From: Pseudanabaena sp. PCC 6802
Lineage (GTDB): Bacteria; Cyanobacteriota; Cyanobacteriia; Pseudanabaenales; Pseudanabaenaceae
Assembly: GCF_000332175.1 (NCBI RefSeq)
Contig: NZ_KB235910.1
Span: forward strand, 373,278-437,277
Length of the DNA: 64,000 nt
Direction: 5' to 3'
Shown one piece after another: positions 3,310 to 15,261 of this stretch. The position numbers and the translations under genes are program-made. Below the pieces are notes generated by a model. It was not told where the DNA came from. It worked only from the letters and a program-made list of their open reading frames with translations, and ran no database searches. The first letter of the stretch is position 1. Every line of letters starts with the position of its first letter.

Positions 3310-4122
3310 TTAACCATTATTAATTGCGTAACCGAGAGACACCACTTTGGACATAAACTGACGGCATAAGTTGGAACTTGGTTTGGGTTTAGTCGTCCAC
3401 CAATCTCTGATTTGCCTCGATCTCAGCCACCCACACCCTTTAAACCGATTCACGAATCGGACGATCCTCGATGCTTCGGGGCTATCAGACGTACCGATCT
3501 CGCAATACAGCATCTTAGTCTGACCCAATAACCAGCGGGTGAACTGGATCGCCTGAAATAGGGTATCCCCTGGAATAGTTGTTTCTGGGTATACGCCAGC
3601 TAACTTTGCGTTGGCAATGTGTGTAATCAGGGCAATCCGTGCTGCAACTTCTTTTAGCTTTGGATAAGCTGCCCTCAGAATTCCTGAGGGTTCTTGCTTG
3701 ATAAAATCGCCTATCTCGCTGTTCCACTGGTTCCAGAAAGCGATCGCCTCACGAGATAATCTATAAGTCTGCGCTGGGTGCTGATTAAGGCCGAGATACA
3801 AAGCCTTTAGAAGTGGAGACAGATCGACGTGGGTTCGCTCGGAGATACCAGGGGGAGTAGTTATAGGTAGTCTAACCCAGATAAAACGCGCCCATAGTCC
3901 ATCCTCTGACGTGGCATCGTCTAGAACCTGCTTTTCAAGAACCGATGGCTGGATACCACCTAAAAGGCTGATTGAGGTGCGGTGAAGGTAGATAGGTTCT
4001 GAGGATTTCCGATTGACCTTGATTGCGCTGCCACTGTAGGAACTAAGCCAACGTTGCCGATCGCTTCCTTTCCCATTTCTGTAAGCATCCATACTCTTAA
4101 GAAACCCTGCTAGCTCGTCAAT
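3310..4122 (-). pseudogene. DUF3987-type replication protein, C-terminal fragment
   Basis: The last 270 residues of a DUF3987-like protein, a family of helicase-like replication proteins on plasmids, phages and integrative elements. The reading frame is open through to the insertion sequence boundary at 4122 and begins IDELAGFLKSMDAYRNGKG, which corresponds to the conserved DE(L)xG region in the middle of the family. The upstream half, with the nucleotide-binding site, is gone. The DNA on the other side of the insertion sequence belongs to an integrase gene, so the missing part was deleted and not simply displaced. An internal ATG at 4092 could start a shorter product. The stop is followed by a repeat-rich region. 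Confidence 0.7.
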
Positions 4123-5070
4123 AGACCTCTTGCAAATTAGCCAACTGAGGAGCCTTGAGAGCGTTCAAAATTGTAGAGACCAGCAATTAGATTGCAACGC
4201 AAACCAAAGCGGTGACGACGATTGCGATAGCGTCCAGATAAGATGCGGAAGATCTTCAAGCGGCGATTAACATGCTCAATGCCAACCCGTTGGCGCGCAA
4301 GTTGGCGGTTGAACGCTTTCTGCTCAGGCGTAAGCTGACCACCTTTCGGTTTCTTGTGGGGTAAGCGGCAGTAGAGATGCAGTTTCTGGATGCCTTGATA
4401 ACCCTTGTCCTGCAAACTCTCGGTTTGAGGATGGAAATGGATGCCAGAAGCTTTGAACAGCTTGAAATCATGCCGTCGCCCCTTGCCGAAAAACGTACAG
4501 ATAATCTGCCCAGTAAGAGCGTCAATTATGAGTTGACATTTGAGCGTGTGCCCTTTCTGTTTGCCGCTATAAAAGGCACGTTGGTGCCGCTTAGGACGCT
4601 CAATGCGAGTTTCAGTCACATCAACGATCGCGACTGTAGGTATCCCAAAGCCCCGCACCAACTGGCGCTTCCCAGGTAGTCGAAAGCGACGTGAGCGGAT
4701 TAAAGTCTCCTCTACCCAATGCACTATTCGACAAACTGTAGACTCGCTGATGCCCCAACTAGTGGCGATGTGAAAGTAGGTGCGATATTCCCGCCAATAC
4801 TCGAAGGCAACCAATATGCGGTCTTCTAGTCCGAGTTTAGGCTTGGCTCCAGGTGTTGGCGTTGCTCGCCACTCTGGTTTAAGCACTTTCACAATTGCTT
4901 TGAACGTATTAGTCTCGATACCAAATCGACGCTTAAAGTGTGCAGCAGGTAGGGTTTGCGCTATTATATAGTTCATCATCAGGACGCTTTTTCGTTATTG
5001 CTATGTCCTGATATTTTCCTATCTTGGGGTTCTTTGGCAACTCAACCTCAACCTAATCTGCAAGAGGTCT
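4123..5070 (-). mobile_element. IS5-family insertion sequence, copy 1 (948 bp)
   Basis: A complete insertion sequence with ends AGACCTCTTGCAAATTAG at the left and the complement of AGACCTCTTGCAGATTAG at the right, an 18-bp inverted repeat with one mismatch. It carries one transposase gene. The left flank ends AAT and the right flank starts ATT. Each fits the three-base ANT target of the ISL2 group, but they differ from each other, and the flanks are parts of two unrelated genes. The copy is therefore probably the product of recombination between two earlier insertions. It encodes the same transposase as the copy at 8128-9075 and has the same length. Confidence 0.9.
4137..4979 (-). CDS. IS5-family transposase (DDE_Tnp_4 type)
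   Basis: A 280-residue transposase. An N-terminal helix-turn-helix (ILVAFEYWREYRTYFHIATSWGISESTVCRIV, about residues 55-88) precedes a DDE nuclease fold. Likely catalytic residues are D in VAIVDVTE near 120, D in SLQDKGYQG near 192 and E in VGIEHVNRR near 235. It cuts and joins the element ends. The length and domain order are those of a full enzyme, so this copy is probably active. It is identical in protein sequence to the enzyme at 8142-8984. Confidence 0.92.
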   Translation of the reverse strand: MMNYIIAQTLPAAHFKRRFGIETNTFKAIVKVLKPEWRATPTPGAKPKLGLEDRILVAFEYWREYRTYFHIATSWGISESTVCRIVHWVEETLIRSRRFRLPGKRQLVRGFGIPTVAIVDVTETRIERPKRHQRAFYSGKQKGHTLKCQLIIDALTGQIICTFFGKGRRHDFKLFKASGIHFHPQTESLQDKGYQGIQKLHLYCRLPHKKPKGGQLTPEQKAFNRQLARQRVGIEHVNRRLKIFRILSGRYRNRRHRFGLRCNLIAGLYNFERSQGSSVG

Positions 5071-5355
5071 ATTAGTCAGGTTTTTCTCTTTTGCGATCGC
5101 CTCGACATAGCGATCGAATAAATCCGGTACGTTAACCTCAATGGCACTCTTACCTATTGTTTTTGGGCTGTATTTCATTAGCGTTGAATCGAAGTAGCCA
5201 GCAGCGATATCAACCTCGATAGTTGCTGCTTTCTGCTTGGCTACTGCCCTACCTGTGGCATTATCATCAACGCCTAAACTCAAACCGTATCGCTTACCTT
5301 GATAGTGCCATCTGAGCCTCAAGCGATCGTCATTACTCTCTATCCAAACTGTCAT
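5071..5355 (-). pseudogene. Tyrosine recombinase of element A, N-terminal stump
   Basis: The first 95 residues of an integrase closely similar to the intact one at 13948-15048: both have the RLRWxYQGKRY start, the GRAxAxQKAAxIExDIxAGYFDxxLxKY stretch and the DLFDRYVEAIAxxKNLTN segment. Only the arm-type DNA-binding domain and the first part of the core-binding domain remain. The frame enters the insertion sequence and stops after RPLAD at 5053. The catalytic domain is absent from the window, so element A cannot excise with its own integrase. Confidence 0.88.
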
Positions 5356-5359
5356 TTTT

Positions 5360-5386
5360 TCTGGGTGTATTTCTGGGTGAATTTAC
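5360..5386. other. Doubled GGGTGAA-type motif, possible integrase arm site
   Basis: CTGGGTGTATTTCTGGGTGAA followed by TTTAC lies just upstream of the integrase stump. The same layout (CGGGGTAAAAATCGGGGTAAA then TTTAC) lies at the corresponding place before the intact integrase at 15050, and a related doubled motif lies at 5605. The repeated spacing at element ends suggests binding sites for the N-terminal domain of the integrase. This is inferred from position and repetition. Confidence 0.4.
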
Positions 5387-5485
5387 TAACCCAAACAACC
5401 CCTAACAGCCTATTTTCGTTGGCTTATTGACAACAAAAACGACCTTCAAGAGTTCTTTGGAACTCCCAAAAGCCTTACCAGTAGC

Positions 5486-5546
<61 letters not shown>

Positions 5547-5604
5547 GGTCATCATTGGCTGGAGTTCTTGGTAGGCAAGGCTTTTAGGCATTTTCAATAA
5601 AGTA

Positions 5605-5626
5605 GCGGGGTGAATATCGGGGTGAC
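5605..5626. other. Doubled GGGGTGA motif, possible left arm site of element B
   Basis: GCGGGGTGAATATCGGGGTGA is a near match to GCGGGGTAAAAATCGGGGTAA at 15050-15071 at the other end of element B. The pair sits about 60-120 bp inside each att-like repeat. This is the layout expected for integrase arm sites, but binding is not shown by sequence alone. Confidence 0.4.
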
Positions 5627-5646
5627 AGTGAGATGTCAATCACCAT

Positions 5647-6108
5647 TCACTGGTGTGCTAACAGGCGATCTACTTTGTTCTCAATTGCATTGAGTTTTCT
5701 GAGGATAGTGGGACGGTCTTCGTCTAAGTTGGCAAGTAGCCTTGCTATCCCCTCCTGGGTATCGGCTAAACGAATCATGGCTTGATTCAACTGTGACGAT
5801 GACTGCTGTTGAGTTGAAACTAGCTGAGCGACATCGCGACCGATTGCCTGGGTTACTGCTCTTAGATCGTCCATCTGTTCGTTACCGCTACTAATGAAAT
5901 GCTCCAACCGTTCGTCAATGCGGGTTATTGCTTCACTATTAGCGGCGATCGCCCTAGCGTTGCTTTCCTGGATTTGTTCGATGCGAGTTAAGCGATCGTT
6001 ACTGGCAGCGGTAGCTTCGCGTATTGCTTCATGATTAGCAGCGATCGCAGTTGCCACCGTAGCAGCAAACCGATCTAGCGTCTCATCTGTCCAGCGTTCG
6101 ACCGTCAT
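5647..6108 (-). CDS. Coiled-coil protein of element B
   Basis: A 153-residue protein that is almost entirely heptad-rich helix (repeated TRI, AIA and RID patterns with polar residues between), predicted to form a long coiled coil. There is no signal peptide or membrane segment. It overlaps the upstream ribbon-helix-helix-like gene by four bases (ATGA), so the two are made together. A DNA-binding protein plus a coiled-coil partner next to a candidate origin could serve partition, copy control or replication, but I recognise no family and do not assign a function. Confidence 0.65.
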   Translation of the reverse strand: MTVERWTDETLDRFAATVATAIAANHEAIREATAASNDRLTRIEQIQESNARAIAANSEAITRIDERLEHFISSGNEQMDDLRAVTQAIGRDVAQLVSTQQQSSSQLNQAMIRLADTQEGIARLLANLDEDRPTILRKLNAIENKVDRLLAHQ

Positions 6109-6380
6109 TGTTGACTACCTCCCATTAACTCTCGTTGTGCTGCCTCGGTGATGACCCGTCGTAACCATGCCGATCGGTTGGGTAGCGATCGCACTAAAGC
6201 GTCAATGTCTCGGAATAGTCTGACCTGTACTTGTGTTTCAGCTAGAGGTTGTGTGCTGTCATCGCATCGCTGCCAGGGATGACGATTTTCAGGTCTAGGG
6301 TTAGGGTTGCTCACAGATTGACTATATAGTTTGCCGTATACCGTTAATGATGACCCATAGGCTGGGGGTTGGTCAACCAC
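6105..6380 (-). CDS. Small ribbon-helix-helix-like DNA-binding protein
   Basis: A 91-residue protein. The C-terminal half (VQVRLFRDIDALVRSLPNR followed by SAWLRRVITEAAQREL) fits a beta strand and two helices of the ribbon-helix-helix fold used by CopG, ParD and related repressors. The N-terminal half is polar and probably disordered. It is the first gene of a two-gene unit, and its promoter side faces the repeat array at 6915-7394, making it a candidate array-binding protein. Fold assignment is from pattern only. Confidence 0.6.
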   Translation of the reverse strand: MVDQPPAYGSSLTVYGKLYSQSVSNPNPRPENRHPWQRCDDSTQPLAETQVQVRLFRDIDALVRSLPNRSAWLRRVITEAAQRELMGGSQQ

Positions 6381-6914
6381 TGACTGATGATTGTTGTCTA
6401 TAGTTTTGAGGGGTATATATAAGCTCTACTTATAGACGTTGGCGGTTAAGTTGCTAATGCTGACCGCAGCTACTGAACACGAGGTGCAGTGCTGACATGG
6501 GGCAGTCAATGTGTGTAGCGAATAGGTTACAGCGCTCAAAATCGTACAATTTTCAAACAGGCGATGATGGGCAAGGTAAGGGCTACCCTATCATACCCCA
6601 GCAAGGTTAGTGTCGTTTTCACCGCACTACAAATCGTACAAATTCAAACAGGGTGTTACTGCTTAGCTGACGGATGATGTTGTTGACCTTAGCTGACTGT
6701 TGGGCGATCAATAGAGCGATCGCTGCCTTAGCTACTGCGCTAACTGATTGCTTAGTTGCAACGTGGTGACCTTATTGATGCACTACAGCGTACTACAACG
6801 CACTACAAGATGCTAGTCAACCACTGCTACTCGTGGGTGATTACAGCATCCAACTAAATTGGTATGCGCAAGGTGTCTCAAACTCTTTTTCTGACTGGTG
6901 TGTAGAGTTTGCTG
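6381..6914. other. Non-coding region left of the origin-like array
   Basis: I see no convincing gene. Short repeated pieces are present: ATCGTACAA followed by TTCAAACAGG occurs at 6541-6561 and again, with one indel, at 6633-6652, and CACTACA-type words recur at 6628 and between 6781 and 6806. The region also holds the likely promoter of the gene starting at 6380. It may be the outer part of the replication or control region of element B. Confidence 0.4.
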
Positions 6915-7394
6915 GTGACGATGGGTGACGATGGGTGACGATACCCAAATTCATCGTCACCACCTCAAAGCTATGCTGAGTAAGGTTTTCGAGGTGCGGG
7001 TGACGATGGTGACGATGAATTGAAGTCCTTTATATATATACCCCTATATACCCCCTATATATATGATCGCTTTACCTCTCTGGCTATAAAGATTTCAAAA
7101 CATCGTCACCATCGTCACCCGACCTCTGAAAGCCCCTCACAGTAAGGATTCTAGCGGTGACGATGAATTTGGGTATCGTCACCCATCGTCACCAGCGAAT
7201 CCTATAAGTCTCTCGCAGCAAAGGTTACATCGATTTTTAATCTACCAACTATTTACCAACCAAAACATCGTCACCATCGTTACCCGACCAACCATTCAGT
7301 CAGAAATGTATCTAATTGTTACAAATTGCATGGTAAATCATCGTCACCATCGTCACCTAATTTTTGCACTCCAATTTATCGTCACCATCGTCAC
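6915..7394. repeat. GTGACGAT/ATCGTCAC iteron-like array with AT-rich block
   Basis: Sixteen exact copies of GTGACGAT or ATCGTCAC start at 6915, 6925, 6935, 6953, 7000, 7009, 7102, 7111, 7157, 7175, 7185, 7267, 7340, 7349, 7378 and 7387; one more at 7276 has a single change. Most are in pairs 9-10 bp apart, about one helical turn, and both orientations occur. Between the sixth and seventh copies, 7030-7066 is a run of TATATA and CCCC tracts that would melt easily. Iterons plus an AT-rich block beside a replicase gene is the layout of a plasmid origin. The role is inferred. Confidence 0.7.
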
Positions 7395-7525
7395 CAATCA
7401 GCATGACCCACCCACATCATCAGTCAGCAAGTCAGGGATCGTCAGCACATCTGTATGTAGTTGATAGTCACCATCGTCAGTTTTTTGGGCATGATTCATT
7501 AAATGTAAGCAATAGAGAAAAACAA

Positions 7526-7828
7526 ATGACTACCTCACCCACTAACTTTGACAAGCTAGTCTCGCTACCGTCTGATTTAGTAAAATCCCTTGTCTCCATT
7601 TGTGAAGATGCTGCTAAATTTGGCTATGAGAAAATTGGTGCCCATCACGTTCACGATCCTGGATTAGGATCGTGTGTCGATTACGGGGGAGAGATCGGTG
7701 TAGTGGCATCGATCGCTACCACAGGGAAAGGCTTAAAACTTTACGGATGTCAGTTCGTTGATGAGTTTCGCATGTTGGGTCTACACGATTTTTGTTTAGT
7801 ACTTTTGGATGAGGGGGCGATCGCATAG
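7526..7828 (+). CDS. Small hypothetical protein of element B
   Basis: A 100-residue protein when started at the ATG at 7526 (MTTSPTNFDKLVSLPSDLVKSL). The frame is open further left to 7364, but that part is the translation of the repeat array, so the internal ATG is preferred. The sequence is mixed alpha and beta with a Gly-rich middle and no motif that I recognise. It is the only plus-strand gene in element B and lies between the array and the end of the primase gene. Confidence 0.5.
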   Translation: MTTSPTNFDKLVSLPSDLVKSLVSICEDAAKFGYEKIGAHHVHDPGLGSCVDYGGEIGVVASIATTGKGLKLYGCQFVDEFRMLGLHDFCLVLLDEGAIA

Positions 7829-7926
7829 CCAAAAAAAAAAAGGCGATGGCATGTTCACCACCGCATATACCCCCAGCAAGCGATCGCTAGACCACCCCAA
7901 CAGTCGCCTAAGCGATCGCCTACCCC

Positions 7927-8127
7927 CTAGTTAGCCTGCAACTTTCGCACTTGCCACATGACACCTAGCTTACTCTTGCTACCCTTATCAAGCCGATAGC
8001 CCCTAGTTCTGACACCAACCTGAAGTCTGAGCCAATACCCCAGCTTTTTTGTGTCCATACCCCAAAGACCAGTCCCATAATGCTCCTGCAAGTGGTCTTG
8101 CAACTGCACTATTTCAGGACGCACATT
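7927..8127 (-). pseudogene. C-terminal fragment of the split primase/helicase gene
   Basis: This 66-codon stretch continues the frame of the large gene at 9076-11970 once the insertion sequence and one copy of the ATT target duplication are removed: GGI-N at the break is followed directly by VRPEIVQLQDHL. The tail contains a winged-helix-like pattern (KKLGYWLRLQVGVRTRGYRL), as in the C-terminal DNA-contact domains of many element replication proteins. A GTG at 8124 could in principle start a separate peptide, but this is unlikely to be functional. Confidence 0.75.
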
Positions 8128-9075
8128 AGACCTCTTGCAAATTAGCCAACTGAGGAGCCTTGAGAGCGTTCAAAATTGTAGAGACCAGCAATTAGATTGC
8201 AACGCAAACCAAAGCGGTGACGACGATTGCGATAGCGTCCAGATAAGATGCGGAAGATCTTCAAGCGGCGATTAACATGCTCAATGCCAACCCGTTGGCG
8301 CGCAAGTTGGCGGTTGAACGCTTTCTGCTCAGGCGTAAGCTGACCACCTTTCGGTTTCTTGTGGGGTAAGCGGCAGTAGAGATGCAGTTTCTGGATGCCT
8401 TGATAACCCTTGTCCTGCAAACTCTCGGTTTGAGGATGGAAATGGATGCCAGAAGCTTTGAACAGCTTGAAATCATGCCGTCGCCCCTTGCCGAAAAACG
8501 TACAGATAATCTGCCCAGTAAGAGCGTCAATTATGAGTTGACATTTGAGCGTGTGCCCTTTCTGTTTGCCGCTATAAAAGGCACGTTGGTGCCGCTTAGG
8601 ACGCTCAATGCGAGTTTCAGTCACATCAACGATCGCGACTGTAGGTATCCCAAAGCCCCGCACCAACTGGCGCTTCCCAGGTAGTCGAAAGCGACGTGAG
8701 CGGATTAAAGTCTCCTCTACCCAATGCACTATTCGACAAACTGTAGACTCGCTGATGCCCCAACTAGTGGCGATGTGAAAGTAGGTGCGATATTCCCGCC
8801 AATACTCGAAGGCAACCAATATGCGGTCTTCTAGTCCGAGTTTAGGCTTGGCTCCAGGTGTTGGCGTTGCTCGCCACTCTGGTTTAAGCACTTTCACAAT
8901 TGCTTTGAACGTATTAGTCTCGATACCAAATCGACGCTTAAAGTGTGCAGCAGGTAGGGTTTGCGCTATTATATAGTTCATCATCAGGACGCTTTTTCGT
9001 TATTGCTATGTCCTGATATTTTCCTATCTTGGGGTTCTTTGGCAACTCAACCTCAACCTAATCTGCAAGAGGTCT
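8128..9075 (-). mobile_element. IS5-family insertion sequence, copy 2 (948 bp)
   Basis: It has the same ends, length and transposase as the copy at 4123-5070. It is flanked on both sides by ATT (8125-8127 and 9076-9078), a three-base target duplication of the ANT type known for the ISL2 group. Removing the element and one ATT restores an open frame in the primase gene, so this is a simple and probably recent insertion. Both copies face the same way and are about 3.1 kb apart, which permits homologous deletion between them. Confidence 0.93.
8142..8984 (-). CDS. IS5-family transposase, second identical copy
   Basis: A 280-residue enzyme with the same protein sequence as the one at 4137-4979, including the helix-turn-helix and the D, D and E catalytic positions. 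It is intact and probably able to move the element. The start (MMNYIIAQTLP) is 91 bp inside the right terminal repeat. No second frame or programmed frameshift is needed, unlike some IS5 subgroups. Confidence 0.92.
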   Translation of the reverse strand: MMNYIIAQTLPAAHFKRRFGIETNTFKAIVKVLKPEWRATPTPGAKPKLGLEDRILVAFEYWREYRTYFHIATSWGISESTVCRIVHWVEETLIRSRRFRLPGKRQLVRGFGIPTVAIVDVTETRIERPKRHQRAFYSGKQKGHTLKCQLIIDALTGQIICTFFGKGRRHDFKLFKASGIHFHPQTESLQDKGYQGIQKLHLYCRLPHKKPKGGQLTPEQKAFNRQLARQRVGIEHVNRRLKIFRILSGRYRNRRHRFGLRCNLIAGLYNFERSQGSSVG

Positions 9076-11970
9076 ATTTATGCCACCAGACTGATCGGTC
9101 ACCACCTTAGCCAAGTCAGTAGCAGTCCACTCACGATCGCCTAGCACACTATGCACCAGACTCAGAAAGTCACCCAATCGATTAAGGTTCGGGTCTTCCT
9201 CTCTAAGTAGTTTCTGGCTGTCAACGGGATCTGCTTCACCTAACCACACCAACGGCTGTCTGACATAACGATCCCATTGCTCGTAACTGGGTAACGGTCT
9301 TTGCTGGTTAGGCGAAGATTGCAGACAAGCCATAGTCACAGTCAGCAGTGCGCTTACCAACCTGACACGCTCCTTAGTTACATAGGGCAATATCTCGCGC
9401 CTGAACGAGCGATCGCTAGGGTTCTCAAAGGGTGACTCCAGATTAATACCTATCGTTCGCCTGATCGCATCGCTGACCACACCTACATGGTTACCATTGG
9501 CAATCCCCAGAGCAGAGTTAGGCACAGTCAGCATCGCGGTGCTACCCAGAATGCGACCTGAATAAAACTCACTGGTCAATATGCTCTCCAGTGCAGCACC
9601 ACGCAGAGACACGTTATTGCAGTTGTCCAGATTGACTACCTGCGCACCGCTGCCTAACACTGCCAGTAGCTTCTTAGCCATTTCCTCTTCCTTAGCATCC
9701 CAAGCGATCGTACTGGGACAAGCGCGATCGCCTAACAACAGTTTGCTTGCGATCGCGGCAAGAGTTGACTTACCAGTGCCAGGGGATGCTGCATTAATGA
9801 CGTGCATAGGTGCCAATGCATAGCACTTTCTGGTCACGGCAGTTAGCAGCAAGCTTAGTGCGCAAGACCCATCCAGGTCGCTAACAAAGGGGAACTCAGC
9901 CAGCAACTCCTTAATGCAGGCGATCGCATTGACCGCATCAGCTTGAGTTGGTGACTTAGGTATATCTGCATAGTCAGCAGGATCGAATAACAACAGTAGC
10001 TTACTGTCACGGTCATATCCAGGGGTGTTGCACAGGGTACCATCCGATCGGATTGCAGGTATGTGTGAAATACCTCTTAGCTCGCACAACATACTGAGGT
10101 TGTTGAAAGTGCGCAGGCGTTCGGCTAGTTCGGTGGGGCATGTATAGTAGTGAACTGTCGGTGCGCTGTTCTTTGAACCTCCTGTTACGATGTAAAACAC
10201 AAAATGCTCGTTAACCGCTCCAGCCCAATCTTTCTGAGAGAGCAACTGACTAATGGTATAGGAGCGATCGCCTGAGTCATTGTGCGACTCCTGTTGTTTT
10301 AGTCGCACGGGTGTATAACCATACTGACGGTTACCCTGCAAATAAAGGCGCTCGACATCCTCACCCCCTTCATTCAGCAGTTGGAATATTTCACGAATAG
10401 TACTATCCATAGATAGCGCATCGGGCTTACCTAACTCGATCTTGTCACCCCCCGACCACCCATTAGCTCTGGCATGGTAAAACAGCGTCCCGATCGTAAA
10501 GTTGTAGTTGCCATCACGTATCCGCTCCCACTCAGCATCACTCAGATCGCCTCTCTTGACAGCGAACAACTCATCAGCAGTCTCAACACCGTAGGTATTC
10601 TTCACAGCCCAATAGCTTTCAGTGAACTGCTGGTAGGTGTTCTCACCTGCTACCCGCTCCTTAATGTAGGGGATAGCTGACAAGACCTTATCTCTGAGGT
10701 GATACGAAGTAGTACGCATCGCTACCTGGACGTTATCAGAGAGGTCATCCAGATTAATAGGTTCCTTCTGTTTGGTACCTCTGATTTGTGACTTTTTGGT
10801 TTGAAAGCTACTGTTAGCAGGGGTCAGACCCTTAGGTGCGATCTTATGACTATGACTGCTCCTATCTGGCAAAGGTGGCAACCAGTCCTCTATTGCAGCT
10901 AAATCCCAAGGAGTCTCATCGCGAACAAACAACCTGACAGGGGTCATCTCGAAGGTGTTCTCAGCGCTATTGAAAGCTACATGATCGAAACCTGGTACGC
11001 GCATCAGTCGGGCAGCATCGCAAATGCTACTATCGCTACCTTCCATAAAAGCTACCAGTCGCCTTTGCAGGTTTTCTCTAATCGACCAGTCCATACCATC
11101 TACAAGATAGTAGGCATGGATTGACTTTCGAGTGACCACTAGCCAGTTAGGTTTCAGGTCTAACCCGTCAATGAAAGCTACCTGATCGTCCATACCCAGG
11201 TTGTCAAACTCAAACATCAACACAGACGGTGTGTGTTTAGTTCCCTCCCAAGTCACGCACTTATTTATACCGATACCGTGTACGTGCGCGTAGATGCCCC
11301 AGCCCCGTTGGTTAGTCTTCACTAGCGCCTCTAGGTTTGGTGAGGGTGACTGAACCTCCTCCTTAGCCAATGGTTTCAGATAATCACACTGCCAATCTCT
11401 CTTGATGTTGATGTTAACAATAGCAGCGGGGTTTATAGACTTGTTTTTTTTGCTCCGCTCTCTACCCTTAAGGTCGATCCTTTGGGGGTAACACCTACCT
11501 CCATCTGTCACCAGATAGATGGGGGTGGAAGGACACCAAAGATCTTCCTTATTGGTGTACCCCCAGTCTTTATGCTTAAACCACTGTTCGGGGTAACCTT
11601 TGCAGGCGATCGCTTTGAATAGCAACCCTGCACTCTTTTGCAATTCTGGGTATGGGTCGAGCAGTTTTCCACCCACCAGTTTAGAGGGGGCATCACGTAC
11701 ATCATCCACATCGCGATCTAGCAGTTGGATAAATTTACCCACGACTGTAAAGCGATCGCCTGCAACCTCTACGAACTCTGAGGGAATGCTGTAGCTAGGG
11801 GCTATACGCGAGATCCCTGGAGCAGTGGTTGTGGTGCCACTGCTAAGGTCTAAGGTAGACTCCAGATTAGGGGCTAGGTTAGGCTCTAAAGTAGCAACAG
11901 TAGACACTCTGGGGGGTGCAACACCTTTAGAAAAAGTGTTGATAATTGTGTTATTATTAGGGCTATACAT
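9058..11970 (-). CDS. Primase-polymerase/helicase replication protein, truncated by IS
   Basis: This large protein is truncated at residue 965, followed by RPLAD from the insertion sequence. An archaeo-eukaryotic-type primase domain is likely at about residues 220-350: MFEFDN near 251 would be the metal-binding acidic pair, TRKSIHAYYLVD near 278 the conserved S-x-H, and CDAARLMRVPGF near 318 the third motif. A P-loop ATPase follows, with Walker A (SPGTGKST) near 731 and an acidic Walker B-like VVNLDN near 775, consistent with a replicative helicase. Such primase-helicase fusions start plasmid replication. It is 9 bp downstream of the 185-residue gene on the same strand. Domain names rest on motif reading only. 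Confidence 0.75.
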   Translation of the reverse strand: MYSPNNNTIINTFSKGVAPPRVSTVATLEPNLAPNLESTLDLSSGTTTTAPGISRIAPSYSIPSEFVEVAGDRFTVVGKFIQLLDRDVDDVRDAPSKLVGGKLLDPYPELQKSAGLLFKAIACKGYPEQWFKHKDWGYTNKEDLWCPSTPIYLVTDGGRCYPQRIDLKGRERSKKNKSINPAAIVNINIKRDWQCDYLKPLAKEEVQSPSPNLEALVKTNQRGWGIYAHVHGIGINKCVTWEGTKHTPSVLMFEFDNLGMDDQVAFIDGLDLKPNWLVVTRKSIHAYYLVDGMDWSIRENLQRRLVAFMEGSDSSICDAARLMRVPGFDHVAFNSAENTFEMTPVRLFVRDETPWDLAAIEDWLPPLPDRSSHSHKIAPKGLTPANSSFQTKKSQIRGTKQKEPINLDDLSDNVQVAMRTTSYHLRDKVLSAIPYIKERVAGENTYQQFTESYWAVKNTYGVETADELFAVKRGDLSDAEWERIRDGNYNFTIGTLFYHARANGWSGGDKIELGKPDALSMDSTIREIFQLLNEGGEDVERLYLQGNRQYGYTPVRLKQQESHNDSGDRSYTISQLLSQKDWAGAVNEHFVFYIVTGGSKNSAPTVHYYTCPTELAERLRTFNNLSMLCELRGISHIPAIRSDGTLCNTPGYDRDSKLLLLFDPADYADIPKSPTQADAVNAIACIKELLAEFPFVSDLDGSCALSLLLTAVTRKCYALAPMHVINAASPGTGKSTLAAIASKLLLGDRACPSTIAWDAKEEEMAKKLLAVLGSGAQVVNLDNCNNVSLRGAALESILTSEFYSGRILGSTAMLTVPNSALGIANGNHVGVVSDAIRRTIGINLESPFENPSDRSFRREILPYVTKERVRLVSALLTVTMACLQSSPNQQRPLPSYEQWDRYVRQPLVWLGEADPVDSQKLLREEDPNLNRLGDFLSLVHSVLGDREWTATDLAKVVTDQSGGINRPLAD

Positions 11971-11979
11971 TTTTCTAAA

Positions 11980-12537
11980 TCAGGGGTGAACTCTCTGGTT
12001 TTTTTGTATCTGTGGGGTGGGCAGCGATATTACCAGAGCACCGTCGGTCAACTCTTCTACACCCCAACCGTTCTCCTCAAATGCAGCAAACTCTCCTGTT
12101 TCCCACTCCTCCATAAAGATTCGATACAGGTCACTTGAGGGGAAGGCTACAGAAGTATCCGAACCGTCCGTGGGTGAGTACCATAGTAAACTCACATGGT
12201 GCTGCAAATGGGGGTGCTGAGAAAAAATAAATCTAGGGTTGAACCTAGCAGGTATTGTCTTTAGAAACACGTTGGTACACTTGGTATGAATTAGTTCGCG
12301 CCGCCTCTTAGTCAGATACCGATAGCAACGTGCGTACTCTTGTGTTTGACGTAGGAGATATTCAAAGTCCCTAACATGATCGGTGTGCTTAGTCGATCGA
12401 TTAGAAGGTTTGTTACTGTTTCTGTGTGCGGCTCTAGCCAGGTAAATCATTCTAGCTGGGGCACTCCTTGTGGAGTCTATAGGGGCAACTAGATCTATAG
12501 AGTCGTTAAATATCATAAACGTCTGAGAATCAGTCAT
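11980..12537 (-). CDS. Hypothetical protein, 185 aa
   Basis: The start at 12537 (MTDSQTFMIFNDS) is chosen because its ATG overlaps the TGA of the upstream gene by four bases; a longer frame to 12669 would overlap that gene by more than 130 bp. The middle is basic (RDFEYLLRQTQEYARCYRYLTKRRREL) and the C-terminal third acidic. No known domain is recognised. It sits directly before the primase gene, in the same unit. Confidence 0.6.
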   Translation of the reverse strand: MTDSQTFMIFNDSIDLVAPIDSTRSAPARMIYLARAAHRNSNKPSNRSTKHTDHVRDFEYLLRQTQEYARCYRYLTKRRRELIHTKCTNVFLKTIPARFNPRFIFSQHPHLQHHVSLLWYSPTDGSDTSVAFPSSDLYRIFMEEWETGEFAAFEENGWGVEELTDGALVISLPTPQIQKNQRVHP

Positions 12538-12800
12538 GATGCTCTCTCCATTGCTAAGGTTGATAAATACTGTTCGACCAAACGTTGATGCTGTGGACTG
12601 TTGCCATTCAGCAGGTAGTCCTGCACCAGGGGTAGGTTCCAAAGGATTTTGCGATTGGGCTGAATCCAATACAGCGGACTGGGTAACTCTCTGCGTAGTT
12701 CAGCTTCAAGAGACTTTCCTAGATCGAAGTACGATCGGAGTGTGTTGGTGCTGACGAACCTCCAGCGAGCGTAAATGTTTTTCTTAGTCTTCATAGGCAT
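12534..12800 (-). CDS. Small protein, possible excisionase-like or regulatory
   Basis: An 88-residue basic protein, first gene of the run leading into the primase. The middle (NRKILWNLPLVQDYLLNGNSP) resembles the wing and recognition region of small excisionase-like proteins on cyanobacterial elements, but this is a weak resemblance. Its promoter region contains a perfect inverted repeat at 12895-12913. A role in control of replication or excision is plausible; no family is claimed. Confidence 0.5.
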   Translation of the reverse strand: MPMKTKKNIYARWRFVSTNTLRSYFDLGKSLEAELRRELPSPLYWIQPNRKILWNLPLVQDYLLNGNSPQHQRLVEQYLSTLAMERAS

Positions 12801-12894
12801 ATATTGGCTGGGGAAGCTAATAAGGCTTTTAAGATTACACAGCCATCATCTCAGCCCCCCAAACCTCCCCATGTGTAAACGGGGAAAAATGCGA

Positions 12895-12913
12895 AAAGTT
12901 TTACAAAAACTTT
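12895..12913. promoter_or_regulatory. Perfect palindrome upstream of the primase operon
   Basis: AAAGTTTT-ACA-AAAACTTT is an exact 8-bp inverted repeat with a 3-bp spacer. It lies about 95 bp upstream of the 88-residue gene that heads the primase operon. The size and symmetry fit a dimeric repressor site. Which protein binds is unknown; the ribbon-helix-helix-like protein at 6105 is one candidate. Confidence 0.45.
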
Positions 12914-12930
12914 ACAATAGGTCGCCCTGT

Positions 12931-13004
12931 AGGGTTAGCTCTCTCCATTGGTAGAGAGAAGAATTGACTACTCCCCGCTCTAAAGAGACGAGGCTACCAA
13001 CCCT
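12931..13004. other. Nested hairpin structure in the primase operon leader
   Basis: The outer arms AGGGTT (12931-12936) and AACCCT (12999-13004) enclose two inner hairpins, CTCTCT/AGAGAG (12939-12958) and CTCT-AA-AGAG (12978-12987). The right half (CCCCGCTCTAAAGAGACGAGG) resembles the subterminal hairpin of some IS200/IS605-type ends in cyanobacteria. It could be a relic of such an element or a structured leader RNA. No transposase gene accompanies it. Confidence 0.35.
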
Positions 13005-13025
13005 ATTGAAAATTTTTTGTGTTGA

Positions 13026-13943
13026 CTAAACTTTGCCCCGTGAGCGCGGTAACCGTGTTACATAGGTGTACCTACCGTATTGTTTGGTCATGTTGTTGAA
13101 GTGCTCCATAGCATTTAGGAATTGACGAATGTGTGATGCTAAGTCTTTTCCGCGCCCATCACCACCCTCAGCATCAGCTACCAGTGCGATCGCCTCTTCT
13201 ACTAGCAACTCAACGATGAAGAACCGCCAATCAATAACCCCTTCTTTTAGTCGCTTGACTATAGTGGTTAGTTGCTCTTTAACGCGAGGACGTGGCGACA
13301 TACTGTCAATATAGGCATCCCAGTTAAACCTATCTGGCTTTATCAGATCGTCCAAAGTAAGAGAGACGATAGGGTCACCATCCTGCGCGGACTTGAGTTT
13401 TTTTCTCTGCGCTCTAATCCAATCTGTCATCATAGGGTGAATAACGTCATCCTTGGGTGTTAGCTTCGCATCTATAGGAAACAGTTTCTCTAGGCACTCA
13501 GCATATTCCATGCAAAACCATAGTTCATTTTCTCCCCCTGCTCTCTGTGCGAGTTCGGAGTAGCTATAGATTTGACGGGCAAACTCGCGCTTAGCTACCG
13601 AGTAGTCAACAAAAAATTTGATAACACCTTCATCTGTACCGTATAACTTTCGGCGTAACTCCTCTTTCTCGGGTGAGTCAGGCATCTCTATGTGAGCCAA
13701 CCCGTGCCCTAGTTTTTTGTAAAGGTCAGATGTGACATCTAGTTGGTCTTTACCGATAGGCGACTCTATGCCTTGAGGGGGGAAACTCCATAGTTGCTGG
13801 ATGACATCATCCTTACTGATCGATCGGAAGTGGCTCTTAAACGATTGCGAAGTCACCCATTTTTTTGCAGGGTCTTTAGCTAAACCCCATTTATGGCGAT
13901 CGTCTCCCAACAACAAATTAGGGTCATTCCAGTTAATCTGCAT
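13026..13943 (-). CDS. Hypothetical protein, 305 aa, next to integrase
   Basis: The start at 13943 (MQINWNDPNLLLGDDRHKWG) is preferred because it follows the integrase stop by 4 bp; a longer frame overlaps the integrase by about 110 bp. The protein is hydrophilic and mostly helical with no membrane segment or known catalytic motif. The middle contains many charged helices (AKREFARQIYSYSELAQRAGGENELWF). Its coupling to the integrase suggests a role in integration, excision or maintenance, but nothing more can be said. Confidence 0.6.
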   Translation of the reverse strand: MQINWNDPNLLLGDDRHKWGLAKDPAKKWVTSQSFKSHFRSISKDDVIQQLWSFPPQGIESPIGKDQLDVTSDLYKKLGHGLAHIEMPDSPEKEELRRKLYGTDEGVIKFFVDYSVAKREFARQIYSYSELAQRAGGENELWFCMEYAECLEKLFPIDAKLTPKDDVIHPMMTDWIRAQRKKLKSAQDGDPIVSLTLDDLIKPDRFNWDAYIDSMSPRPRVKEQLTTIVKRLKEGVIDWRFFIVELLVEEAIALVADAEGGDGRGKDLASHIRQFLNAMEHFNNMTKQYGRYTYVTRLPRSRGKV

Positions 13944-13947
13944 CTTT

Positions 13948-15048
13948 CTAAAACTCCACAAATACTGACTGTTGTTCAATTGCACTGGCATAGCTCTGAT
14001 GCAGCACCCTAGGATCGTGTCCTGTCGCTTCAGCCACCTGAAGATAGTTAGCACCATTGGCTAGGGCGTGGCTGATAGCTGTGTGTCTAGTGCTGTAAGG
14101 TTTGCGATACTCGATGTGACACTGTTCTAGAATGTGCTTCCACGCCCTATTTCTGAAGTTATGGCTATCGATATAACCCCCCTTAGGTGATGGGAACACT
14201 AGGTCATCAGGCTTTGGTTGTAATGCCTCATGACGCGATCGCAGCATCTCACTTACCTTAGAACTGAGCAGAATAGTCCTGGCTTTACCTGTCTTGGTGG
14301 ACTTGCGCTTACCGTCAGCGATGCTCTGACCGATCCATGCAGTCTGATAGTCAGCACCTAAGTGTTTCCATTGCAAGGCGATCGCTTCACCTAACCTGCA
14401 CCCCGTCCCGAACAGGAACTGAACGAAAGGGTAGTAGTGACTGTAGTAGCGATCGCCCTCAAAGGCAGCCAGGATCGCTTTGATTTCAGCAGTGGTGAAC
14501 GGTCTGACTTTCTGCTTAGGTTGGGGCTTGATGCGAGCAAGTGGAGCGATCCAGGGGTTTTCATCAGCGATGTGATATTTACCCCTTGCCCAGTCCCAGC
14601 AACTCCTAAGCATCCAGAGGTACTCTTTAGCGGTGCGATCGCTGACATGCTCTTTTAGGTAGGCAGCAAAGTCACCAGCTATGCGATCGCTTACTGTGAC
14701 TGCTGGTAGAGTTAGGTGCTGCCTGACATGGGCTTGAATGCCTTGATATCGTCGTAGCGAACCATTAGTCAGGTTTTTATCACGGGCGATTGCCTCGACA
14801 TAGCGATCGAATAGCTGAGGTGCAGTTAACTCTGTGGCATTCTTGCCTAGAAGTTTGGGCTTATATTTCAGCAGACTTGGATCGAAGTAGCCAGCGCTGA
14901 TATCTAACTCGATCTGTGCTGCTTTCTGACGGGCTAATGCTCTGCCAGTAGGATTATCGCTAACCGCTGCTGACAAGGTGTATCGCTTGCCCTGGTACAA
15001 CCAACGCAGTCTGAGTCTGCCGTTGTGGTTTTCTATCGTGACTTTCAT
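13948..15048 (-). CDS. Tyrosine recombinase (integrase) of element B
   Basis: A 366-residue integrase. Residues 1-80 form an arm-type DNA-binding domain, about 85-175 a SAM-like core-binding domain, and 190-366 the catalytic domain. Catalytic residues visible are R in GTGCRLGEAI, K in the beta-hairpin region (KRKSTKTGKART), H-x-x-R replaced by TRH in YSTRHTAISHAL, H in ATGHDPRVL and the nucleophile Y in HQSYASAI. It inserts and removes the element at the 3' end of tRNA-Val, whose gene lies 141 bp from its start, the usual position. It appears intact. Confidence 0.9.
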   Translation of the reverse strand: MKVTIENHNGRLRLRWLYQGKRYTLSAAVSDNPTGRALARQKAAQIELDISAGYFDPSLLKYKPKLLGKNATELTAPQLFDRYVEAIARDKNLTNGSLRRYQGIQAHVRQHLTLPAVTVSDRIAGDFAAYLKEHVSDRTAKEYLWMLRSCWDWARGKYHIADENPWIAPLARIKPQPKQKVRPFTTAEIKAILAAFEGDRYYSHYYPFVQFLFGTGCRLGEAIALQWKHLGADYQTAWIGQSIADGKRKSTKTGKARTILLSSKVSEMLRSRHEALQPKPDDLVFPSPKGGYIDSHNFRNRAWKHILEQCHIEYRKPYSTRHTAISHALANGANYLQVAEATGHDPRVLHQSYASAIEQQSVFVEF

Positions 15049-15049
15049 A

Positions 15050-15071
15050 GCGGGGTAAAAATCGGGGTAAA
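15050..15071. other. Doubled CGGGGTAAA motif, possible right arm site
   Basis: GCGGGGTAAAAATCGGGGTAA overlaps the leader of the integrase gene and matches the doubled motif at 5605-5626 at the other end of element B, with a related copy at 5360. Repetition at both ends suggests integrase arm binding, which would also let the protein control its own gene. Confidence 0.4.
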
Positions 15072-15187
15072 TTTACAACCCAAATAACCCTTATCAGCCT
15101 ATTTTCATTGGCTTATTGACAGCAAAAACGACCTTCGAGAGTTACTTGGAACTCCCAAAAGCCTTACCAGTAAAGGTTCCCCAACCG

Positions 15188-15261
<74 letters not shown>

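Follow-up and report, generated by a model that had tools for sequence, protein, structure and literature searches.

What is the dense cluster of short repeats at 6915–7394 of the window (the whole 64-kb stretch of DNA analysed here), which lies inside a mobile element integrated at a tRNA-Val gene? We propose, with a probability of about 0.85, that the region 6903–7480 is the replication origin of this element, served by the element's own Rep protein. Judged from its sequence, it is of the same kind as the primase-helicase iteron origins of P4 and the PICIs, and it would provide a concrete candidate origin for a cyanobacterial integrative element.

An iteron array mirrored about an AT-rich spacer

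The array, whose extended unit is GGTGACGATG, holds 16 exact copies of an 8-bp word (GTGACGAT/ATCGTCAC), six on the plus and ten on the minus strand. Our recount agrees with the original prediction, which had counted 16 exact words in 480 bp and described them as mostly paired one helical turn apart: start-to-start spacing is 9–10 bp at 6915/6925/6935, 7000/7009, 7102/7111, 7175/7185, 7340/7349 and 7378/7387. The 64-kb window contains 25 occurrences of GTGACGAT/ATCGTCAC, compared with a mean of 1.5 and a maximum of 5 in 100 dinucleotide shuffles, and each of 2000 shuffles of the local 1.2 kb yielded at most two copies. No second GTGACGAT cluster was found in the element or the window.

Eleven of the words (6915–7192) belong to a symmetrical core, 6903–7204, which forms a single large dyad, a feature that the original prediction does not mention. 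Their order is + + + − + + to the left of an AT-rich stretch and − − + − − to its right, and 10 of the 11 have a mirror partner on the opposite strand within 1 bp about a centre at 7059, which was set from the inner pairs and falls within the AT-rich stretch. The dyad includes a perfect 38-nt inverted repeat (6924–6961/7156–7193) and a 47-nt inverted repeat of 79% identity (6984–7030/7088–7134). Between the inner pairs lies an 85-bp spacer (7017–7101), the proposed melting block, with an AT content of 67%, rising to 73% in the previously noted stretch at 7030–7066, compared with 52% for the whole element. The locus combines a cluster of a short repeated word with an adjacent AT-rich block, as iteron origins generally do, and its two inverted sets of iterons flank an AT-rich region, as in origins of the P4/PICI type. 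The remaining five exact words (at 7267, 7340, 7349, 7378 and 7387, the last ending at 7394) lie outside the dyad in a flank to one side (7205–7480), all in the same orientation, accompanied by four one-mismatch copies, one in the array (7276) and three just beyond its edge (7438, 7464 and 7473).

The element at tRNA-Val

The element spans approximately 5486–15235 from att to att, or about 9 kb. Its 61-nt att repeat at the far end (5486–5546) is identical to 15175–15235, in the 3' part of the tRNA-Val gene (15189–15261, minus strand), confirming the tRNA-Val island setting that had been proposed. Genes for the integrase, a 343-aa protein, an 88-aa protein, a 229-aa protein, Rep, a 91-aa protein and a 153-aa protein are all on the minus strand, with one small plus-strand ORF (7364/7526–7828) adjoining the array. 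The tyrosine integrase (13948–15048, minus strand) matches Pfam PF00589, PF12167 and PF13102, and the 88-aa protein (12534–12800, minus strand) is excisionase-like by eye, with a correspondingly putative function. An integrase and an att site are shared with PICIs, but scans of the element's proteins with Pfam, PHROGs and NCBIfam recognised no genes for phage induction, interference or packaging, and we do not class the element as a PICI; the same scans recognised no capsid, terminase or partition ATPase. The genome is cyanobacterium-like; its assembly amounts to 5.6 Mb in six contigs, and GCGATCGC words appear abundant by eye.

Rep and its interruption by an insertion sequence

The candidate initiator is the element's Rep, which appears to combine, in one polypeptide, a primase of the archaeo-eukaryotic type and a helicase of the hexameric type. 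Its first 970 codons (9058–11970, minus strand; the last few derive from the end of an insertion sequence) have PHROG primase/helicase matches and a Walker A motif recognised by eye, with an AEP-like primase region at residues ~205–520 and a P-loop helicase at ~610–960, a division also seen in the tblastn matches. The last 65 codons, the proposed origin-binding part, are detached (7927–8124, minus strand) and were recognised by a match to a profile of the relatives' Rep C-termini (E 9e-7, in a small search set). Separating the two, just before the conserved C-terminal region, is an IS5-type insertion (8127–9078, minus strand). It is 100% identical to the copy at 4122–5073, which has an NCBIfam transpos_IS5_4 match at 4137–4979, and to many others among the more than 20 full-length, near-identical IS5-type copies in the genome; because of this identity the insertion into rep looks recent.

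By analogy with P4 alpha and ORF904 of pRN1, the C-terminal part of Rep is likely to be its origin-binding domain, and sequence likeness suggests that it is a winged helix; a single-sequence structure prediction for the C-terminus of a related Rep (L305, see below) reached a pLDDT of 47, too poor for a fold search. In the mechanism we envisage, Rep would bind the GGTGACGATG iterons via this region, and the iterons on both mirrored arms would load a pair of helicase rings at the AT-rich spacer, which would melt and allow both strands to be primed by Rep.

Since the likely origin-binding part has been cut off by the insertion, the present copy probably cannot start replication, and the origin would now be silent, though its iterons are still intact. 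The loss of the last 65 codons bears on present function and not on descent. No other Rep of the same type was found in the genome, and a Rep protein search of genome and viral collections found no close relative. The suggestion that the element replicates when excised is thus only partly supported, and it is not supported for this copy, in which rep is split and to which no second Rep of its type could be matched in the genome. The primase-helicase gene that had been reported beside the array is present but interrupted. It is an adjacent initiator gene nonetheless, as iteron origins generally have: the array lies 0.5 kb past the rep stop at 7927, on the 3' side, with a small ORF in between. 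This distance is greater than in most relatives, but the side is the one they share and the one on which P4/PICI-type origins lie relative to the primase-helicase gene. The insertion would exemplify a recent way of freezing such a replicon in the chromosome.

Several further features surround the insertion sequences. The identical IS5-type pair, which has one orientation (4122–9078), flanks the array, an att repeat and fragments of two elements, and the origin would be lost if the two copies recombined. At 4122–5073 the insertion sequence lies between a truncated integrase and a truncated DUF3987 helicase, a junction that looks as if the middle of a second element had been lost by IS-mediated deletion. 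The window also encodes, at 1210–2948, a RadD-like helicase and a 116-aa protein; a 114-aa protein similar to the latter comes after rep in the syntenic element L345 described below, and the array-bearing contigs L189, L298 and L235 have RadD-like helicases too.

Most Rep relatives examined keep the position of the array and vary its word

We collected Rep homologues by protein search and looked beside them for inverted arrays without assuming any word. The array-bearing relatives are distant ones, from cyanobacteria and phages as well as from a plasmid and an archaeal virus, and their words mostly differ from GTGACGAT. Among relatives of the helicase part, 8 of 12 have an inverted array just past, or in the last part of, rep: L253 (GCAGGAT), L254 (GGTGACTC), L256 (CGGGTAGT), L345 (TGCTGAGGA, a weak array), L346 (TGCGGGGG), L348 (GGTGACGAT), L358 (TGCGGGTA; virus vir525, recorded host Methanosarcinales) and L360 (AACCCACT; an Azospirillum plasmid). 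Relatives of the primase part only carry an array inside the 3' part of rep in four of seven cases, L258 (GTGAGTCA), L259 (GGTTGGTA), L260 (GGTGAAGC) and L332 (GGTAGTTGA). No clear array was seen at L255, L359, L361 and L362, nor at the primase-part-only relatives L257, L331 and L333. The relatives' arrays are mostly missing from the rest of the locus and from shuffled sequence. Place and layout thus stay while the word changes, as expected of an origin that co-evolves with its initiator, and the simple rule of inverted iterons at the 3' end of a primase-helicase gene held in most relatives examined.

Two relatives deserve particular mention. L345 is a syntenic element at tRNA-Pro, with an integrase 66% identical to that of the window, a homologue (48%) of the 88-aa protein between int and rep, a Rep of 34% identity and the array at the 3' end of rep, all in the same order as in the window; a protein that by eye is like a phage terminase follows. 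L305, a viral contig retrieved solely for its inverted GTGACGAT words, encodes a Rep helicase 36% identical to that of the window over 300 aa (E 7e-45), and its array, approximately 10 bp from rep, includes an 18-mer, GGTGACGATGGTGACGAT, identical to that in the window. This L305/L348 module (IMG/VR) resembles the present locus in its helicase, its 18-mer and its inverted array beside the 3' end of rep, but differs in having four exact copies and in lying inside a 96-kb phage contig. The inverted 3' arrays of homologous rep genes and the shared 18-mer lend good support to the original prediction of an integrated replicon's origin with its own initiator. Close relatives of the element are rare, which leaves little against which to judge the conservation of this very array; its exact inner pairs were found in no other of 386 genomes of the phylum. 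When plasmids were searched by BLAST with the array DNA, the sole match was a 27-nt one attributable to chance; among the papers listed by a literature search for GTGACGAT there were only primers and similar matches, and we found no described origin for this Rep family.

Comparison with known systems and alternative roles of the array

The closest parallels come from replicons whose initiator joins a primase to a helicase. PICI origins lie immediately 3' of rep, consist of two iteron sets around an AT-rich region and have been shown to support replication (PMC6092414). Our element shares with the PICI/SaPI pri-rep-ori arrangement an integrase-carrying island of ~9 kb, a (here proposed) origin 3' of rep and two iteron sets flanking an AT-rich region; it differs in its lack of recognised induction, interference and packaging genes, its cyanobacterial host and its IS-split Rep. 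The archaeal plasmid pRN1 has its origin 3' of the gene for a primase/SF3-helicase that ends in a winged helix (PMC4234260). Plasmids of this type (ORF904) resemble the element in combining an archaeo-eukaryotic primase, a helicase and a C-terminal DNA-binding domain, in having the origin downstream of rep and in carrying a small repressor gene (PMC4234260), although for pRN1 the description is of a 100-bp stem-loop origin instead of an iteron array. A stem-loop 3' of rep has also been reported for phage BIP-1, which is near-identical to Bordetella phage BPP-1 (PMC4234260). In BPP-1 we observed inverted tandem TTTGCCTCG words around an AT-rich stretch approximately 0.5 kb 3' of the primase gene (L356:2600–2720), where an iteron reading may be worth testing.

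P4, whose alpha protein joins primase, helicase and a C-terminal winged helix (PMC4234260), offers both a parallel and the better of the alternatives. Its crr region, 46 bp 3' of alpha, consists of 8-bp units in 9-bp pairs, the type I repeats reading GGTGAACA. Common to P4 crr/ori and the present array are 8-bp iterons starting with GGTGA, 9-bp tandem pairs, both orientations and a location 3' of the initiator gene; P4 differs in the TOPRIM primase of alpha, in a second, distant ori and in the word after GGTGA. With its two iteron regions, crr and an ori ~4.5 kb away, P4 raises the question of whether our array, whose arrangement is most like crr, could be a copy-control or incompatibility region, replication starting elsewhere in the element. 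The five outer iterons (7267–7394), outside the dyad and in one orientation, would suit such a role. Yet neither the element nor the window offers a second GTGACGAT cluster from which replication could start, and the iterons lie on both sides of an AT-rich block, as in PICI origins (PMC6092414), so that we regard copy control as improbable.

The array could instead be an operator or partition site of the 91-aa protein (6105–6380, minus strand), comparable to omega heptads or CopG sites, and control divergent genes or segregation. Ribbon-helix-helix proteins do bind arrays of short repeats, and the array, located upstream of the gene for the 91-aa protein, also extends into the region where the plus-strand ORF at 7364/7526–7828 starts. 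The gene is present near the array as had been noted, but its ribbon-helix-helix character, judged by eye from the sequence, is only plausible: the protein has no Pfam match, and its single-sequence model, of low confidence (pLDDT 61) and too poor for a fold search, shows two C-terminal helices and no strand. A second 91-aa/153-aa pair (61% and 78% identity), beside an integrase remnant on contig 5 of the same genome (L252:7881–8877), lacks the GTGACGAT array, which makes the 91-aa protein unlikely as the main ligand of the array. Moreover, none of the element's ORFs was recognised as a ParA-type ATPase, the arrays of the relatives go with rep genes, and an operator would have no need for mirror symmetry about an AT-rich block. 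We therefore consider this role very unlikely. Finally, a chance or decayed, functionless tandem repeat, as might be imagined in an IS-interrupted and possibly dead element, can be dismissed: there are 16 copies (approximately none expected) mirrored within 1 bp, Rep genes both related and unrelated to this one have the word next to them, and the shuffles and control-word scans exclude chance.

Recurrence of the word beside unlike primase-helicases

Viral contigs were scanned for the inverted pattern GTGACGAT N0–12 GTGACGAT N65–95 ATCGTCAC, which occurred in 75 contigs, compared with one for the reversed and none for a permuted word. A primase-helicase adjoins the pattern in 63 of the 75, within 250 bp in all but four. 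Fifty-six of these 63 are one BT4734_N/PriCT_1 clade, the others being Prim-Pol with D5, D5/DUF5906, TOPRIM with ATPase and the L305 type; as the 56 share a common ancestry, only about six of the cases are independent. Three of the 75, of the L268 type, adjoin an 811-aa protein of unknown type and were left out of the primase-neighbour count. Two more cases came from a looser scan: L103, where the array lies within the gene of a DUF3987 helicase, and L235, again of the D5/DUF5906 type. A three-copy direct pattern matched many coding repeats and was filtered for both orientations. The P4 word with a 30–60 bp gap gave nine matches. As a neutral control word GGTGACTA had to be rejected: it had four matches, of which L352 and L353 are located 3' of primase genes at a distance of 70–80 bp (L354 has the same sequence as L352), and it was therefore counted as a further GGTGAC-type array.

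The frequency of exact GTGACGAT beside unlike primase-helicases is out of the ordinary. A tentative explanation, possible rather than probable, is that GTGACGAT, with its core GGTGA, is an origin word common to several unlike families (BT4734_N/PriCT_1, Prim-Pol with D5, D5/DUF5906, TOPRIM, DUF3987 and the present cyanobacterial type), either because they share a C-terminal DNA-binding domain or because they have converged. Because several relatives use quite different words, the GGTGA core is a lead and no established rule. If a shared recognition domain lay behind the recurrence, the origins of many metagenomic phages and satellites would become predictable and testable; a shared origin word would allow those of many unclassified phages and satellites to be found by sequence alone.

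A separate observation concerns a fragment of a large contractile-tailed phage with a Gp23 capsid and a tail sheath (IMGVR_UViG_3300038466_000036), which carries a 12-copy GTGACGAT array at L232:8754–9064. No primase-helicase was recognised among the proteins scanned on this 55-kb piece. Seven successive iterons of its array (the second to the eighth) match those of the window in order and orientation, with offsets agreeing to ~2 bp.
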